A stretch of DNA of 64,000 bases from Armatimonadota bacterium (GTDB lineage Bacteria > Armatimonadota > Fimbriimonadia > Fimbriimonadales > Fimbriimonadaceae), in the NCBI GenBank assembly GCA_025360125.1, contig JANYCU010000033.1, positions 1 through 64,000 of the forward strand, written 5' to 3'. Below the pieces are notes generated by a model. It ran no database searches and was not told the DNA's origin. It saw only the letters and a program-made list of their open reading frames with translations. This document shows positions 17,379-48,734 of the stretch, piece by piece; the stretch's first letter is position 1; each line of letters opens with the position of its first letter. A program made the position numbers and the translations under genes.

Positions 17379-17466
17379 TGGCGGACAGGGAGGGATTCGA
17401 ACCCTCGGAGGCTTGCACCTCACCGCATTTCGAGTGCGGCGCACTAGACCACTATGCGACCTATCC
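17379..17466 (-). tRNA. tRNA-Ser (CGA)
   Basis: The 88-base cloverleaf has an acceptor stem G-G-A-T-A-G-G pairing with C-C-T-G-T-C-C (one G-U), an anticodon stem C-C-G-C-A/T-G-C-G-G with loop C-T-C-G-A-A-A (anticodon CGA, reading UCG), a long class II variable arm, the T-loop G-G-G-T-T-C-G-A-A-T-C-C-C, and an encoded 3' CCA. All point to serine. Confidence 0.95.
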
Positions 17467-40670: not shown

Positions 40671-41348
40671 TTATTCACCGCGGAGGCGGTAGCCAATTCC
40701 GGTTTCAGTGATGAGAAGTTTTGGCCGTGATGGGTCGTCTTCCAGCTTGGTGCGAAGCTGCTGCGAGTAGACGCGCAGGTAGTGCAGTTCCTCTTCGTAT
40801 TCGGGCCCCCACACCTCACGGAGAATGTGGGTGTGAGTCAGGACTTTGCCCAAATTGCGGGCCAGGAGGGCAAGGAATTTGAACTCGGTTGGTGTCAAAT
40901 GGACTTCTTCCCCTCGTTTCGTAACCACATGAGCGGCGAGATCGATTTTGATGTCGGCGATCGTGATTGCGGCTAAAGTCTCTAGAGGTTGGGCCGACCG
41001 AAGGGCGACTCGGATTCGGGCAAATAGCTCAGGAAGACTAAACGGTTTTGTAAGGTAGTCGTTCGCACCTGCATCCAGGGCGTTGACTTTGTCATCATCC
41101 TCGCCGCGAGCCGAAAGGATGATGATCGGAATTTGGGTCCATTCGCGAATCCGACGCGTTACTTCAACTCCATCGATATCGGGAAGGCCGAGATCGAGCA
41201 GGATGACGTCGGGCGAGCTCGTGGCGGCGAGCCGAATCCCCGTAGCCCCATCGCTGGCTTCAATCACCTGATGGTCGGCCGGGTCAACGCTGGCGGCGAG
41301 AAACCGTCGGATCGAGAGTTCGTCGTCAATGACCAAGATCTTAGCCAA
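40671..41348 (-). CDS. kdpE: Response regulator KdpE
   Basis: An OmpR-family regulator of 225 residues. The receiver domain has the phosphorylated aspartate in V-I-L-L-D-L-G-L-P-D near 51 and the lysine in T-K-P-F-S near 101. The winged helix with R-V-Y-S-Q-Q-L-R-T-K-L forms the C-terminus. It overlaps the end of kdpD by eight bases, so sensor and regulator are coupled. Confidence 0.95.
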   Translation of the reverse strand: MAKILVIDDELSIRRFLAASVDPADHQVIEASDGATGIRLAATSSPDVILLDLGLPDIDGVEVTRRIREWTQIPIIILSARGEDDDKVNALDAGANDYLTKPFSLPELFARIRVALRSAQPLETLAAITIADIKIDLAAHVVTKRGEEVHLTPTEFKFLALLARNLGKVLTHTHILREVWGPEYEEELHYLRVYSQQLRTKLEDDPSRPKLLITETGIGYRLRGE

Positions 41349-43986
41349 CGGGCACCTCGGGCTGCTTTTCGGGCAGCGGAAATTCTAGTCGGAACATGGC
41401 ACCGCCCTCGGGTGCGTTAGTCGCGTTGACCCGGCCTCCATGGAGTTTCACAATTGCTTCAACAATAGCCAATCCTAGCCCGAAACCGCCCGTATCCGTT
41501 CGGAAACCTGGCTTGAACAATTTCCCGAGAGCGTCGGCGGGAATTCCTGGCCCAGAATCCGAAATGAGAAAGATCACCCGTCCAATCTCCGAAAATACTT
41601 TGATCGTGATGGAGTCGCCAGAACGAGTAAATCGCCCCGCGTTTTCGATCAGATTGATTAGGGCTTTTTCAACAAGGAGTCCATCGGCCTCAAAAAGGGC
41701 GGATTGGCTAGCGATATTGACCGTCACAACTCGATCTTCGAGGGCAAGTTTGCATTTTTCGAGGGCTCCCGAAATCAGTTCTTGGGGCGATTGCCACGTC
41801 CGTTTGATTTCCACATTCCCGGCTTGGAGGCGGGTCATGTCCAGCAGGTTTTGGATTTGGTGATTAAGGCGAACCGATTCGGAAAAGATGGTCGCGGACA
41901 GTTCTGTCACGTCGCCATGACCTTGCATGAGCGAACTCGCGGCGCCCGTAATGCTGGTGAGCGGGGTGCGAAGGTCGTGCGAAATGGAGCTGAGCAGGGT
42001 GCTTCGGAGCTTTTCCGATTCCGCGTCGATCCGAGCATCGTTGGACTGTTTGGCTAAAATCGTTCGTTCCAGGGCGAGACCGAGACCGTTGGCAAAGGTT
42101 TCTAAGAATTGGGGTTGCGGAATTCGGTCGACGGTTTCACGGGGTTTGAAACAGAGCACGCCGATGACACTTTCGCTTCCACGAAGCGGAATGCTCAGGG
42201 CAGACGAGCCGGGGAGCGTCGCAGTGCCCAGGCCTGCAGGTTCGCCGTGGTCTGCGACCCACCGCGCAACCGCCAACTCATTGGATAGTTTTTCGAATTG
42301 GGTGTCTGATGGAATGAGAATTGTCAGTTGGCCATCATCAACGAGAAAAACGGCTGCGTCTCCGTCAAAAACTGAGCTTATTTCTTGGACTGCGGACCTG
42401 GCAACTTCGCGCTTCCCTTTGCCCTGGGCGAGTTGACGACTAAGCGCATACAAACTCGCCGTTCTTCGCTCACGCTCACTTGAACTCTTGAGTTGGGACC
42501 GAAGACGATCCGTTAATGTGCTGATCACGAGGCCAACCGTGACCATGACTCCGAACAGAAATAGGTAGCGAGCATCGCTGACGGCAAACGAGAATCGCGG
42601 TTCGACAAAACAGAAGTTAAACGTGACAACGCTAACGAGGGAAAGGGACGCAGATTCGGTGCGGTTGAGTTTGGTTGCGGATACCACGACACCGAGGACG
42701 TACAACATGGCGACGTTCGCCAGTCCAAATGTTCGGAACATGGTAAAGCTGACCAAGGTCGCTAAGCTAACTGTCGAAAGGGCAATGATCGCTCCGTAAA
42801 TGGTGATGGGGGGTTGCGTGGATCGGGAAGCAACTGTTCGATTGGTTTCTTCCGGCCTGGCAGTGATGACATGAACATCGATATCGCCACTTCGCCGAAC
42901 AAGTTCATCAACCACGGACCCAAACAGGATTTCTCGCCACCGAGGGCGGATCGGCTTTCCGACGACGATCAATGTGCAATTTCTGCGAGTGGCGAAAGCT
43001 ACGATTTCGGCGACAATATCGTGGCCGTGAAGGTTGACGACTTCGATCCCTAACCCCTCGGCAATTTCGAGGGCCTCTCGTGCGTGCTCATGTTCAGAGT
43101 GACCACGCGATGTTTGGCGATCACTCTCCACCGTTAGGGCAATAAGTTCAGCATGAGACGACGCGGCGAGCCTCGCCGCGGCCCGAACAACCCGAGTGCC
43201 AAGCTGATTGGGGGCCACGCAAACGATGATTCGTTCTTTGGTTGCCCACGTGCCCCGAGTGCCTTCCTGGGTGCGCAGCCGCTGCATTTCGGCGTCAACC
43301 GAGTCGGCGGTTCGACGAAGGGCGATTTCACGAAGTGCCGTGAGGTTGCTCGTTTTGAAGAAGCCCTCGAGCGCATGTTCGACCCTTTCTGGTATGTAAA
43401 CTTTGCCTTCTTTGAGCCGCTTCTGAAGCTCGGCGGGGGGAAGATCAATCAGTTCGATTTCGTCGGCTTGATCGAAAAAGGAGTCCGGAATGGTTTCTTG
43501 AACTCGGATGCCAGAGACTTGGGCTACAACATCGTTCAGGCTCTCCAAGTGTTGGATATTGACCGCAGTGAAGACGTTAATTCCTGCGTCGAGAATGTCG
43601 TTGATGTCTTGCCATCGTTTGGCATGAATCGACCCGGGCGTGTTGGTGTGGGCAAGTTCGTCAATGATGACGATCTGGGGACTTCGTTCGATAATGGCAG
43701 GAACGTCCACTTCGTTTATCGTTGAGCCTTTGTAATAAATGCCCTTAAGAGGAATCAGTTCTAACCCTTCGAGAAGGGCGCGAGTTTCTTGGCGTTGATG
43801 GGTTTCGACGTAGCCACCGACAATGTCGGTGCCGCGTTTGAGCTGCTCGTGAGCTTCGCTGAGCATCGCGAATGTCTTGCCGACGCCTGCCGACGCACCG
43901 AGAAAGATTTTGAGCCGCCCGCGATGATCCGTCCGGTGCTGAACCGCCTTCAATAAATCATCAGGATCGGGACGTACGAAATCCAA
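41341..43986 (-). CDS. kdpD: Sensor histidine kinase KdpD
   Basis: Domains in order: the KdpD N-terminal Walker A (G-A-S-A-G-V-G-K-T, 30-38) and D-E-L-A-H-T, a universal-stress-like domain (about 245-370), a short four-helix membrane unit (about 395-500), a GAF-like segment, the phospho-acceptor H in S-I-S-H-D-L-R-T-P-L (about 670), and an HATPase domain with D-S-G-P-G-I-P and G-F-G-L-G-L-A. It senses potassium limitation and phosphorylates KdpE. The start is TTG, eight bases after a TACACT box (43995-44000), so it is probably leaderless. Confidence 0.95.
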   Translation of the reverse strand: MDFVRPDPDDLLKAVQHRTDHRGRLKIFLGASAGVGKTFAMLSEAHEQLKRGTDIVGGYVETHQRQETRALLEGLELIPLKGIYYKGSTINEVDVPAIIERSPQIVIIDELAHTNTPGSIHAKRWQDINDILDAGINVFTAVNIQHLESLNDVVAQVSGIRVQETIPDSFFDQADEIELIDLPPAELQKRLKEGKVYIPERVEHALEGFFKTSNLTALREIALRRTADSVDAEMQRLRTQEGTRGTWATKERIIVCVAPNQLGTRVVRAAARLAASSHAELIALTVESDRQTSRGHSEHEHAREALEIAEGLGIEVVNLHGHDIVAEIVAFATRRNCTLIVVGKPIRPRWREILFGSVVDELVRRSGDIDVHVITARPEETNRTVASRSTQPPITIYGAIIALSTVSLATLVSFTMFRTFGLANVAMLYVLGVVVSATKLNRTESASLSLVSVVTFNFCFVEPRFSFAVSDARYLFLFGVMVTVGLVISTLTDRLRSQLKSSSERERRTASLYALSRQLAQGKGKREVARSAVQEISSVFDGDAAVFLVDDGQLTILIPSDTQFEKLSNELAVARWVADHGEPAGLGTATLPGSSALSIPLRGSESVIGVLCFKPRETVDRIPQPQFLETFANGLGLALERTILAKQSNDARIDAESEKLRSTLLSSISHDLRTPLTSITGAASSLMQGHGDVTELSATIFSESVRLNHQIQNLLDMTRLQAGNVEIKRTWQSPQELISGALEKCKLALEDRVVTVNIASQSALFEADGLLVEKALINLIENAGRFTRSGDSITIKVFSEIGRVIFLISDSGPGIPADALGKLFKPGFRTDTGGFGLGLAIVEAIVKLHGGRVNATNAPEGGAMFRLEFPLPEKQPEVPVG

Positions 43987-44137
43987 TTATTTTCAGTGTA
44001 CTAAGCTTCAGTAAGGTTCGATACCTTGTGTCCTATTCTTGATATATCCTTGAGGAAATAGGGCTCCCCTTGGCTGCTTCGCTGCTCCAGCGGAGCCTCT
44101 CGGGATGTCGCCGAAACAATAGCTCAATGGACATCCG

Positions 44138-44224
44138 TACCGCGAAGCGGTTACACACAGGTAGCCGTGGGTGCTTGCACCCACGGTAGGATCCATAAAG
44201 ACCCGACCCCGAAGTGGGTCGCAC
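44138..44224 (+). repeat. Left hairpin array of the transposase element
   Basis: Three palindromes follow one another. A is at 44139-44152 (accgc-gaa-gcggt type). B is at 44165-44186, a perfect 10-bp stem with a 2-base loop. C is at 44204-44221, a 6-bp stem. Each has an inverted counterpart after the gene. Confidence 0.8.
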
Positions 44225-44253
44225 AAGAGCACTTCTGATATGATTGTTCGAAA

Positions 44254-44691
44254 GTGTCCACCTACCTCGCTCTCAATATTCACATCATTTTCAGTACTAA
44301 GAACCGAACGCCGTTTCTAACCGATGAATTCTTGGAACCAATGCTGAGATACATCGTCGGCACCATTGAAGGATTGGGTGCAGTTTCCATCAAGGTTGGC
44401 GGCGTGGCCGATCATGTCCACATTTTGGTGAGGATCAAATCGACTCAGAGCGTGGCAAATTTCGTTCAGGAGCTAAAGAAAGCCAGCAGTCATTGGATGC
44501 GGGAAAGAGTTCCTTCGTTTGCTTGGCAAGACGGGTATGCGGCAATTGCGGTCAGCCCGAGCGACCTGCCCATGATGACAAACTACATTTTGAACCAAAC
44601 CGAACATCATCACAAAATAACGTTCGAGGAAGAACGATTAGAAATCCTGAAGATGGCATCCATTGCCCGTGATCCAAGGTATTTGGATTAG
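44254..44691 (+). mobile_element. REP-associated tyrosine (Y1 HUH, IS200-like) transposase
   Basis: The 145-residue transposase carries D-H-V-H at 53-56 (the HUH metal site) and Y111 in N-Y-I-L-N-Q, the nucleophile that cuts single-stranded DNA. F-S-T-K-N-R, G-G-V-A-D-H-V-H and F-x-W-Q-D-G-Y-A are the family landmarks. The start is GTG, nine bases after a TATGAT box. Flanking inverted hairpin arrays (44138-44224 and 44696-44783) point to a RAYT-type enzyme that recognises REP-like hairpins rather than a simple IS200. It looks intact. Confidence 0.88.
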
Positions 44692-44695
44692 AACG

Positions 44696-44783
44696 GTGCG
44701 ACCCGCTTCGGGGTCGGGTATTTGGATGGTCATTCCGTGGGAGCACGCACCCACGGCTACTTGGGTATAACCGCTTCGCGGTA
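44696..44783 (-). repeat. Right hairpin array of the transposase element
   Basis: This is the inverted copy of the left array in order C', B', A'. C' (44696-44719) differs from the left copy at one base in 24. B' spans 44735-44756, with its seven-base arms intact. A' (44769-44783) is identical over 15 bases. The linker between B and A is also partly conserved. The 186 bases after it, up to the next gene, hold no recognisable feature. Confidence 0.8.
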
Positions 44784-44969: not shown

Positions 44970-47498
44970 TTACTTGACAACGGCCGTCGAAACGAATCCA
45001 GCGTCGATGTACTTGTCGCCACCGTCGTCGTGGCAATGGATCGAAATCTGGTTCTTGCCCACTCGCAACGTTGCATGGACGGCTTTCGGAAGGTCATAGA
45101 CCTCGTATCCGCCCGCATTCGGGAGTCGAACCGCGAGTACGCCATTGATGTAAACCTCGGCTCCGTCGTCGTGTCCGGCGATGAGTTGAAGGTTCTTGAT
45201 CGTCGTCGCGGTGAGTTCGAAATTTCGGCGAATCCAAATGTCGCGACCTTGCCAAGGGGTGCGGATCACGCCTCCGCGCGACTCTCCCTCGCCAAAGCCC
45301 GCCAACCCTTTGCTCCAACCCGATGAGTCGAAGTTATTCTGGAACCAGCCGTCGGCGGGACGGGTGAATGTGTAGGACCATTCGAGGCCCTGGGTGACCG
45401 CGGTCGGTATCACGGTAGTGACGGTAGGCGGGGTTGGCAACCCGGCCCACGGTCCAAATTTCTCCCGGTCTCGCCCCGAATACTTGGCCCAAAGCGGCGT
45501 GTCGAGCATCTTGATGAATACTCCACCAACGACCGAGCGAGCTTGGAAGCCTTCATGTTGCGGTCGCGACGTGTAGTACCAGTCGGTCATCGGAATGCGA
45601 TCGGTGGTCTCGTTAAGGAACTTCGCGATCGGTTTGACGATCATGTCGAAGTCTTCACGCTTGCCGGTCAATGTTGCGGTCCAAATTTCCCAATCGAGCT
45701 TGGTATAGTCCTTGCGGCTGTCGAGCGGGAGGCCGAAAGGATTGATCTTCGTGAGGTAGTAATCCATCTCGGCTCGGGCGATCGAAGTCGGGAATAGATT
45801 GATGTCCAGGATGCGGTCCCAAACGAGGTTGTATTTCTGGCTCCAGGTGTTTGGTTGGTCGAATGCGAGTCGGTAGTGGTCGCCTTCACGCGCTTCCTTT
45901 TCCCATCGAACGGCAAACTCCTGCGCCATCTTGTGGAATTTCGAAGCTTCATTATGCTTACCAAGTCCATCAGCCAGTTGAGCGTATGCACCGAGCGCCT
46001 CGATCGCCTTGGCCGACAGATTCACGTTATGCGCCAGATGACCAGCAAAATCGTCGGTCGAAAGCTGACGAGCCGGATCGAAGCCCTCTTTGGCGAGGTA
46101 GTTCGCCCACTTTTGAATCTGCGGCCAATACTTAGCGCTGAAGTTCGCGTTGCCCTCTTGCTTGGCGAGGGCGGCCAAAAGGATGATCATGTTGCCGGAC
46201 TCTTCGACGGGCATCTGGTTATCCTCGGTGCGTTCGCCACCGCCGTAGACTTGACCATTGGCCTTTGGATATTGACCGAGATCGTGCGGGGCGAAAGGCC
46301 ATTTCCATCGACTCGAAGCGGCGTATTCCATAATCGGCACCAAACTCGCTTTGGTCAAGGCGGGGCTGAAAAGCAGGAGTTGTGGAGCGGCCGGGTAGAG
46401 GACGTCAACGGTTGAGATGCAGCCGTTGCTGAAGTTCTCTTTGCTGAACATGAGCGGTTGCCCCTGGCTGTCTGCGACGACCTTTTGGGCGGCAAAGCTC
46501 TGGCGATAGGCGAGGGCTCCGATATAGGCATAGTCGGCTCCGCCAACTTTGGTCATGTCGGCGGCGACTTCCCGGTCGAAGGCGGCGCACTTGATCGAGA
46601 GTCGGGCGTAGTCTTGTTCGGCAACACGCAGCAGTCCAGCGGCATCCATACCATTTCGTCGCCAATAAGGACGAAGCTTATGGCCCATAAACAGGATTGA
46701 ATATTCGTCGTCGTAGGCGAGCACCAAGTGCCGCGAAACCGGGGTGCTGCTCACTTTTCCGAACGGCATGACAAAGGCGGCGGCGATGTCGTTTCGGGCC
46801 GGAGTCGCGATGGAAGGTTCATCCTTTGGCAGAATCCCCTTCTCGACGAAGGCGGTGATGCCTCGGTCGCTGGCGCCCAGATAGTTGAGCCCCTGTCCTT
46901 GCACCAGCACGTGGCCCCAATCAATTCGGAGGTTGTCGCCTCGCTTCTGGAGCACGGGTTGGTCGTCGCCCGAGATGCTCAAAACGTTGTTGCTGACTCG
47001 TTTGGTGACGACGCTTTGACCTGGTTCATTGACGGCAAGACGTCCGTCAGCACTGAAGTAGACGCTGGCGTCGTGGGCTTTTCGATCGGTTGACCGGACG
47101 TCCCAGGTGATGTAGGTGGCAGGGCGACTCAAGGTCGCGATGTCATCAGGGAGACTTGGAGTGGTGAAGGTGAGGGTAACCGCTACTCCGGCCCCGGCGA
47201 AGGTGTAGATGGTGCGGGTTGCGCCGACTTTGAGCTCAGTTTGGGGCAGGACCGCGGGCACTTTGTCGCTTTTGCCCATGAGCCGAAATGCTCTGCCGTC
47301 GATTCTGGCGAAGCTGAGAAGGGGCTGCTCGGCTCCCGTCCAGTGGCGCGTATTGCTGTCGGCGAGGTTATTGGAATTCGACCAGATGCTGAAGTAAGGA
47401 TCGTGGGCAACCAGCGGAACGGATGGTGGCCGCATGTCGGCGGTGGCGATGCAACCTAGGGCAGTTGCGAAAACGAAAGAGGGTACGAGTCGTAGCAT
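44970..47498 (-). CDS. Secreted glutaminase-A-like protein (DUF5127/DUF4965/DUF1793) with C-terminal beta-sandwich
   Basis: A signal peptide (first 20 residues) is followed by a DUF5127-type beta domain, then DUF4965 (Y-R-Q-S-F-A-A-Q near 335) and the DUF1793 helical toroid, which ends at L-D-T-P-L-W-A-K-Y-S-G-R. Residues about 690-842 form a carbohydrate-binding-like beta-sandwich (W-F-Q-N-N-F-D-S-S-G-W to Q-L-I-A-G-H-D-D-G-A-E-V-Y-I-N-G). The GtaA-like name does not settle the substrate; the toroid and sandwich suggest polysaccharide or peptide breakdown outside the cell. Confidence 0.85.
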   Translation of the reverse strand: MLRLVPSFVFATALGCIATADMRPPSVPLVAHDPYFSIWSNSNNLADSNTRHWTGAEQPLLSFARIDGRAFRLMGKSDKVPAVLPQTELKVGATRTIYTFAGAGVAVTLTFTTPSLPDDIATLSRPATYITWDVRSTDRKAHDASVYFSADGRLAVNEPGQSVVTKRVSNNVLSISGDDQPVLQKRGDNLRIDWGHVLVQGQGLNYLGASDRGITAFVEKGILPKDEPSIATPARNDIAAAFVMPFGKVSSTPVSRHLVLAYDDEYSILFMGHKLRPYWRRNGMDAAGLLRVAEQDYARLSIKCAAFDREVAADMTKVGGADYAYIGALAYRQSFAAQKVVADSQGQPLMFSKENFSNGCISTVDVLYPAAPQLLLFSPALTKASLVPIMEYAASSRWKWPFAPHDLGQYPKANGQVYGGGERTEDNQMPVEESGNMIILLAALAKQEGNANFSAKYWPQIQKWANYLAKEGFDPARQLSTDDFAGHLAHNVNLSAKAIEALGAYAQLADGLGKHNEASKFHKMAQEFAVRWEKEAREGDHYRLAFDQPNTWSQKYNLVWDRILDINLFPTSIARAEMDYYLTKINPFGLPLDSRKDYTKLDWEIWTATLTGKREDFDMIVKPIAKFLNETTDRIPMTDWYYTSRPQHEGFQARSVVGGVFIKMLDTPLWAKYSGRDREKFGPWAGLPTPPTVTTVIPTAVTQGLEWSYTFTRPADGWFQNNFDSSGWSKGLAGFGEGESRGGVIRTPWQGRDIWIRRNFELTATTIKNLQLIAGHDDGAEVYINGVLAVRLPNAGGYEVYDLPKAVHATLRVGKNQISIHCHDDGGDKYIDAGFVSTAVVK

Positions 47499-48658: not shown

Positions 48659-48734
48659 TGGCGTCCCGGACAGAATTCGAATCTGCGACCTATAGCTTAG
48701 GAGGCTATTGCTCTATCCACTGAGCTACCGGGAC
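48659..48734 (-). tRNA. tRNA-Arg (CCT)
   Basis: A 76-base cloverleaf with acceptor G-T-C-C-C-G-G/C-C-G-G-G-A-C, D-arm A-G-C-T-C-A-G-T-G-G-A-T-A-G-A-G-C, anticodon stem A-T-A-G-C/G-C-T-A-T with loop C-T-C-C-T-A-A (anticodon CCT, reading AGG), a T-loop with T-T-C-G-A-A-T, and an encoded CCA. The following 114 bases to the next gene are featureless. Confidence 0.95.

Follow-up and report, generated by a model that had tools for sequence, protein, structure and literature searches.

In a 64,000-nucleotide stretch of DNA from an Armatimonadota bacterium of the family Fimbriimonadaceae (assembly GCA_025360125.1, contig JANYCU010000033.1, positions 1 to 64,000; hereafter the window), a 646-bp unit carries tnpA, the gene of a small single-tyrosine (Y1) HUH transposase, between two mirror-image arrays of three hairpins each. 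The reading that we favor, at a probability of about 0.7, is a system resembling REPtrons and REPINs (doublets of repetitive extragenic palindromes [REPs]), in which a TnpAY1 enzyme of subclass 1.2 is paired with a cognate compound REP composed of three DNA hairpins. Chance is excluded as the origin of the mirrored arrays: a second unit and five solo triples occur in the same genome, and the flanks of tnpA are mirror-similar at 72 of 81 homologous loci, compared to none of 63 distal control pairs.

The left array, A-B-C, spans 44138-44224 and the right array, C'-B'-A', spans 44696-44783, with tnpA between them (Table 1). A repeat search of 1.6 kb returned inverted arms of 54 nt (44138-44191/44730-44783, 87% identity) and 28 nt (44197-44224/44696-44723, 93%), and the two other inverted pairs listed were 14 and 12 nt long. 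A sequence-only reading of this stretch had described hairpins A, B, and C as recurring in the order C', B', and A' beyond the gene; its coordinates were right and the mirror order was confirmed, as was its view that the arrangement goes beyond a simple REP pair. Its mismatch counts (A, none in 15; C, one in 24) were adjusted on recounting: between the left and the mirrored right array, A differs at 0 of 16, B at 2 of 22, and C at 1 of 23 positions.

Table 1. Features of the tnpA unit (positions in the window)
Feature	Coordinates	Strand	Remarks
Whole unit	44138..44783	+	646 bp; similarity with the second genomic copy stops near the outer edges of the A hairpins
Hairpin A, left array	44138..44153	+	ACCGC-GAA-GCGGT
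TAG foot	44162..44164	+	Adjoins hairpin B; GTAG in the window
Hairpin B, left array	44165..44186	+	10-bp stem
B-C linker	44187..44203	+	Differs between copies
Hairpin C, left array	44204..44221	+	GAA loop; one unpaired stem base
tnpA	44254..44691	+	Y1/HUH transposase, 145 aa; TnpAY1 subclass 1.2-like by motifs
Hairpin C', right array	44699..44716	-	
Hairpin B', right array	44735..44756	-	TAG foot at 44757-44759 on the minus strand
Hairpin A', right array	44768..44783	-	

To the Pfam library, TnpA matched Y1_Tnp only (81 bits). It scored 59 bits against the NCBIfam IS200/IS605 model NF033573, above the cut-off of 55, and 20.3 bits against NF047646, the model of REP-associated tyrosine transposases (RAYTs), far below the cut-off of 80. 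The catalytic motif reads YILNQTEHH and lacks the Y...NP of class 2 TnpAREP, which together with the low REP score rules out a strict RAYT; the name RAYT given in the sequence-only reading was not supported in the strict sense. Subclass 1.2 has been described by the motifs DH[VI]H, WQ, and Y...Q..HH and a length of about 148 aa (PMC6006769). By a motif table, used in place of a subclass hidden Markov model, the window TnpA has DH[IV]H, WQ, Y...Q..HH, and the matching length, and the enzyme therefore fits TnpAY1 subclass 1.2. A TIRYT, a transposase associated with terminal inverted repeats, was also considered and rejected: a subclass 2.1 protein with a C-terminal helix-turn-helix (HTH) domain would be expected, and the window protein has 145 aa and Y1_Tnp only. 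Across 55 homologues aligned from the 87 loci introduced below (L011, which has a stop, and L037 were left out, and others were removed to thin the set), H54, H56, W91, Q92, Y111, H118, H119, and E127 are invariant; the aligned homologues match the IS200 model at E values of 0.001 or lower, and 25 match the REP model as well.

A scan of genome contigs yielded 286 relatives of tnpA, of which the best 80 were kept and joined with seven loci of the window's own genome to give 87. For the 81 loci flanked on each side by 200 bp or more (six short-flank loci were left out), the upstream flank was compared with the reverse-complemented downstream flank, and the 99.9th percentile of block shuffles served as the threshold; the result is the mirror similarity at 72 loci given above. 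Neither half of the outcome named beforehand as refuting, namely no other copies and no similar arrangement around homologous transposases, occurred.

We then searched with an array model, R1, built from 17 arrays in three genomes of one genus and run on 74 public-record loci (three of which, L041, L066, and L069, belong to the window's genus) and on the seven own loci. In the 74 loci, R1 gave 104 matches, 89 of them within 300 bp of tnpA, where near-tnpA sequence accounts for 44,167 of 387,493 non-ORF bases (ORF, open reading frame). At least one array in the expected direction was found at 46 of the 74 loci and both arrays at 21; matches in the reverse direction numbered 7 upstream and 12 downstream, and several of these belong to loci with multiple arrays. 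By record titles, the two-sided loci come from Verrucomicrobia, Planctomycetes, Bacteroidetes, Armatimonadetes, Hydrogenedentota, and Sumerlaeota. A second model, R2, raised the two-sided loci to 41 of 74, a partly circular count, made on the best 150 of 195 matches, since R2 was trained on R1 matches in loci on which it was then run. R2 adds Acidobacteria, whose loci also score high in the mirror test (L012, 122; L019, 140; L082, 111). Among loci of the genus on which R2 had not been trained, 18 of 24 have both arrays; these 24 remain from 26 further loci after exclusion of L177 and L185, which are the training loci L041 and L066, while L186 equals L069, which was searched and gave no training row, and L171 and L183 overlap. 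The tnpA of L011 (3001-3438) has an in-frame stop, and R2 still finds both its arrays. At L057 (3559-4600), about a dozen overlapping R2 matches in one direction form a tandem row of arrays downstream of tnpA.

Plasmid and Escherichia coli sequences served as controls. Fifteen plasmid tnpA loci (L335 to L346 and L350 to L352) were picked among the listed 30 of 85 and 30 of 573 records, and the Y...Q..HH motif occurs only in the two that score best, those of Persicobacter (L335) and Bernardetia (L350). L335, which had not been used in training, has both arrays (R2 E values of 1.8e-11 and 5.6e-12). The 13 IS200 loci without the subclass motif gave no R2 match at E values up to 1, and their mirror scores were 16 to 26, with the threshold at 33. 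The E. coli rayT locus gave no R2 match; its mirror score of 35 lies just over the threshold, as the REPs there would lead one to expect. Among viral contigs, a scan found three weak relatives.

The 4.13-Mb genome of the window holds a second whole unit, C39:144443-145094, which is 87% identical and has the same layout. Hairpin B occurs with at most three mismatches at nine places, at eight of which hairpin A is exact. Each place holds a full A-B-C triple, with spacing that hardly varies: four triples flank the two tnpA copies and five are solos without a gene. All five solos lie outside ORFs of at least 110 aa. The hairpins of the two whole units are identical save for one base in B', whereas identity is 87% between their ORFs, in which 35 of 49 fourfold sites agree, and their B-C linkers hardly align. 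Searching for the hairpins singly and in pairs, as had been proposed, thus returned full triples only. Single dispersal was rejected for this genome: near-matches to A outside arrays numbered 2, compared to 7 for a backward control pattern, and near-matches to C need two or three mismatches, some of them sitting in arrays of other paralogues. The genome has seven tnpA genes, and the six copies other than that of the window all have mirror arrays in the same order. Five of them are more distant paralogues (35 to 53% identical) with mirror triples of the same order and other hairpin sequences. R1 detects the full array pair at six of these seven loci (the left array of L165 at an E value of 0.0056), and at the seventh, L166, the mirror triple was seen by folding, with a mirror score of 94. 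One tnpA copy has, next to its array pair, an extra array of the same family in tandem (L162:1249-1346; G000:C51:63258-63355). No target-site consensus was found beside the own arrays. A matching empty site of the window unit was not found in relatives; where both neighbor genes matched, they lay on different contigs or far apart.

Gene-free copies are also found in other genomes; since at most 150 candidates per genome were scored, the R1 and R2 counts per genome are lower bounds. In the genus, R1 matches range from 0 to 49 per genome and are present in 11 of 14 genomes with a tnpA match, compared to 1 of 6 without. Each of 11 other genomes contains at least 7 to 61 R2 matches. In five Verrucomicrobia genomes, pairs of B hairpins stand about 700 to 780 nt apart around tnpA, and the same genomes contain gene-free mirror pairs 108 to 293 nt apart as well as single B hairpins. 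In Bacteroides, 21 mirror doublets have a gap of 9 to 13 nt, compared to 459 to 480 nt in gene-bearing units (three genomes); the stretches were chosen mostly where pairs were listed, and the share of doublets is therefore not a census. In layout, these doublets resemble REPINs in which a triple hairpin replaces each REP. Of 20 G007 arrays, 15 are not inside an ORF of at least 110 aa by crude ORF calling. The suggestion that the unit is transposable or a source of dispersed repeats thus gained support from two whole copies and five solo triples in the own genome and from doublets and solos in others.

Two clusters of mirror doublets in G010 (C4:202007-205772 and C6:51895-52605) alternate in direction in the manner of bacterial interspersed mosaic elements (BIMEs), and the C6 cluster adjoins a tnpA. 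Ahead of several doublets of Bacteroides clarus (L357 to L368) lies a common stretch whose last letters are TAACC; apart from it, no target-site consensus was found beside the Bacteroides arrays. At L359, the two 25-nt outer flanks are exact reverse complements, and the palindrome extends past the A hairpins.

The strongest competitor, which we nonetheless consider improbable, is an ordinary insertion sequence (IS) of the IS200/IS605 superfamily with long inverted-repeat ends, in which the 646-bp unit moves as a whole and solos and doublets result from decay or deletion of copies. The NCBIfam assignment, the two whole units of 87% identity whose similarity stops near the A hairpins, the seven tnpA genes of the own genome, and ten matches, pieces among them, in a single relative are all as this explanation would have it. 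However, arrays exceed two per tnpA, with at least 20 for 7 genes in G000, at least 49 for 8 matches in G007, and at least 34 for 2 in G010. Moreover, the 21 Bacteroides doublets, in which the short gap replaces the gene, are too regular for random decay, tnpA stays at one syntenic place in Bacteroides, and such ends are missing from the 13 plasmid IS200 loci that lack the subclass motif. Viral contigs gave only the three weak relatives, and the subclass motif occurs in 2 of 15 plasmid loci.

Stability and turnover were compared in related genomes. The gene and its arrays occupy a single syntenic position in Bacteroides, supported by both flanks in three species and by one in a fourth, and the sister genomes of L010 and L013 share it as well. 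Array sites differ: five of six in G102 correspond to array-free places in sister genomes, counting only cases with both flanks found. This holds for L215, L216, and L267 in both sisters and for L268 and L269 in one each. In the other sister, the L269 flanks are 2.5 kb apart, and 400 nt were checked at each end. At the sixth site, L271, one sister has A and B and the other a copy that appears degenerate by eye. Because the intergenic DNA of the sisters has diverged, the insertion edges were not set to the base.

These patterns bear on a further explanation, compatible with the one that we favor, in which the host has domesticated the system, so that arrays and TnpA serve the cell, for example in chromosome structure or single-stranded DNA editing, and no longer move. 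The common syntenic place in Bacteroides fits it, as do hairpins conserved beside 35 of 49 identical fourfold sites, the few viral-contig relatives, and the two subclass members in 15 plasmid loci. Array sites that differ between sister genomes and a whole unit duplicated within a genome speak against it, and we rate it unlikely, a shade below the ordinary insertion sequence.

Several observations weigh against a compound REP spread by a subclass 1.2 enzyme. Nine of the 81 loci (L023, L042, L053, L055, L057, L061, L070, L078, and L087) fall below the mirror threshold; R2 matches lie near the gene at eight of them, often one-sided or in the same direction, and none was found at L061. Among the 24 untrained loci of the genus, five have one array and one, the gene fragment L179, has none. 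At the Bernardetia locus L350, which has the subclass 1.2 motifs, the mirror score is 78, but the hairpins are weaker and AT-rich, and R2 gave no match. R1 found no arrays in 3 of the 14 tnpA-bearing genomes of the genus (G003, G004, and G011), although R2 does find arrays at the G003 and G004 genes, and G016 has three R1 arrays in a genome without tnpA. In the own genome, no mirror doublets were seen, only solos and gene flanks. Furthermore, empty sites in sister genomes do not separate gain from loss. The linkers raise a separate difficulty. Mean identity among the nine own copies is 0.97 for A, 0.94 for B, and 0.93 for C but 0.51 for the B-C linker, compared to 0.44 for shuffled sequence; in Verrucomicrobia, the hairpins reach 0.82 to 0.91 and the linker 0.45, compared to 0.41. 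Simple recent copy-and-paste does not predict such constant hairpins with near-random linkers unless the hairpins are selected or homogenized. In G007, the hairpins are diverse too (0.62 to 0.68; linker, 0.44, compared to 0.38 shuffled). Only the Bacteroides copies have close linker partners, with a best-partner mean of 0.86 in B. clarus, as recent copies would give. Old copies seem to keep their hairpins by selection or homogenization.

The composition of the arrays was determined from the best 150 of the 195 R2 matches. The loop of hairpin A has G in 132 of 150 matches, any base in the middle, and A in 138, and is followed by an (A/C)A(G/T)-like tail. Hairpin B is adjoined by TAG in 103 of 150, NAG in 141, and GTAG in 37. 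Hairpin C has a GNA loop, and A stands at the second position of its tail in 118. A and C thus look like one kind, small GNA-triloop hairpins with an (A/C)A(G/T)-like tail; of the three different hairpin types proposed earlier, B stands apart through its TAG foot, and A and C seem to be variants of a single type. On an alignment fitted to the structure, 892 cells changed on both sides of a pair, compared to 279.5 in shuffled data, with such changes at 21 of 21 modelled pairs and 94.3% of cells paired; structures slid along the alignment reached at most 163. On a MAFFT alignment (A1), the figure was 23 cells, compared to 7.0 shuffled.

G.T pairs make up 66 of 2844 (2.3%), and a low G.T share points to selection on DNA rather than RNA. 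GNA loops, triloops of a kind stable in single-stranded DNA, occur on the gene-ward strand at 1.22 and 1.36 per flank, compared to 0.15 and 0.23 for the complementary loop (perfect-stem scans, which miss hairpin C owing to its unpaired base). The scarcity of G.T pairs and the strand preference of the GNA loops suggest that the hairpins act as DNA rather than RNA. An Rfam search covering the window together with the seven own tnpA loci found two tRNAs only and no match at the arrays, which rules out a known RNA family. That the hairpins instead work as RNA, as terminators or as a leader and trailer insulating or regulating tnpA with solos as stray terminators, is very improbable: strong stems on both sides, the position of all five own solos outside ORFs, and a reported IS200 tnpA 5' RNA with a regulatory effect (PMC12594629) agree with it, but the few G.T pairs, the lack of a T run after hairpin B in the own arrays, the A-B-C order and mirror symmetry preserved across phyla, the empty Rfam result, and the gene-free mirror doublets do not.

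For the compound REP, we propose the following mechanism. Read toward the gene, an array consists of A with its GNA triloop, TAG-B with a long stem, a variable linker, and C with a GNA triloop and, in the window's family, an unpaired base. The three hairpins would fold when the strand is single, for instance on the lagging-strand template. TnpA would bind the array strand-specifically, recognizing and being guided by B together with its TAG foot. The positions of the cuts would be set by A and C or by the CA-like dinucleotides that follow them, and TnpA would cleave and rejoin single-stranded DNA. Arrays would be dispersed in trans as solos or REPIN-like mirror doublets, and occasionally the whole unit would move. 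TnpAREP needs a GTAG foot, plus a bulge in E. coli, and cuts at CT or CA on one strand only (PMC8266576); by analogy with this enzyme, we infer TAG-B and the unpaired base of C to be putative recognition features and the CA-like dinucleotides behind A and C to be candidate cut sites. The fullest form of the proposal is an overlooked REPIN-like class in at least seven phyla, including gut Bacteroides, in which TAG-B is recognized, A and C mark the cuts, and doublets are multiplied in trans via single-stranded intermediates; we advance it tentatively and put it at somewhat under an even chance.

Compared with known systems, the unit is close in organization to REPtrons of class 2 RAYTs such as E. 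coli rayT, which likewise pair a single-tyrosine HUH enzyme with inverted flanking hairpins bearing a GTAG-like foot, have a hairpin family per enzyme, and leave single and inverted double copies between genes (PMC6006769 and PMC8266576). Unlike them, the window TnpA has YIxNQxEHH instead of Y...NP and falls far below the REP-transposase model, and a fixed triple of about 90 nt takes the place of the single REP. As for the features by which RAYTs are recognized, the arrays are inverted, TAG stands before B in 103 and GTAG in 37 of 150 matches as the counterpart of the GT[AG]G foot, with three hairpins rather than one, and dispersed intergenic copies are present. Short, gene-free, dispersed inverted doublets, the hallmark of REPINs, are found in relatives (Bacteroides and Verrucomicrobia), with none seen in the own genome. 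The protein shares with subclass 1.2 the motifs, the length, the low copy number, and the divergent paralogues; PMC6006769 gives this subclass no REP and generally no terminal secondary structures, whereas mirror triples are the rule in the 81 loci sampled here, a set that does not take in the cyanobacterial members of that study. Because 72 of 81 loci are mirror-similar, it is the published description, rather than the membership, that fails.

IS200/IS605 elements (subclass 1.1) share the Y1_Tnp family, an NCBIfam score over the cut-off, and hairpins near the ends, but the window ends are inverted mirror triples instead of single subterminal hairpins, and the unit has no TnpB, a Y...Q..HH motif, and small gene-free copies. 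TIRtrons have a tyrosine transposase and long terminal inverted repeats (TIRs), some self-complementary and some repeated in the genome (Di Nocera et al. 2013; PMC3733652); their TIR motif, GGGGWSAS, differs from the A-TAG-B-C layout, and 20 of 26 TIRYT examples were later put in subclass 2.1, with C-terminal HTH domains (PMC6006769). TnpAY1 class 3 is found in Planctomycetes and Acidobacteria, with several atypical structures around the gene and a high copy number in Solibacter, but has the motifs NHVH, W[TA], and YV[VI][AENY]EQ and a CnGA foot (PMC6006769).

In titles and the starts of abstracts of the open-licence PubMed Central literature, we did not find mirror triple hairpins around subclass 1.2 genes. 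PMC6006769 assigns subclass 1.2 neither a repeat nor IS-type ends and so leaves its role open; the arrays are a candidate substrate. Because the triple-hairpin blocks recur around related genes and as gene-free copies in several phyla, they point to an overlooked kind of mobile repeat. If the enzyme uses the arrays, REP and REPIN biology would gain a second protein lineage, one that would reach Bacteroidetes, Planctomycetes, Verrucomicrobia, Acidobacteria, Armatimonadetes, and others. It would also be another case of a tiny transposase spreading or maintaining hairpin repeats and would explain repeated intergenic hairpins in phyla known mainly from metagenomes.

In the window, the unit lies between a long minus-strand ORF (41341-43986), which we take by eye to be KdpD-like, and another long ORF (44970-47498). 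Positions 44090-44117, just outside the left array, match C54:118907-118934 in the same genome at 93%. The two tRNA genes found by Rfam lie on the minus strand of the window, at 17382-17466 and 48662-48734.
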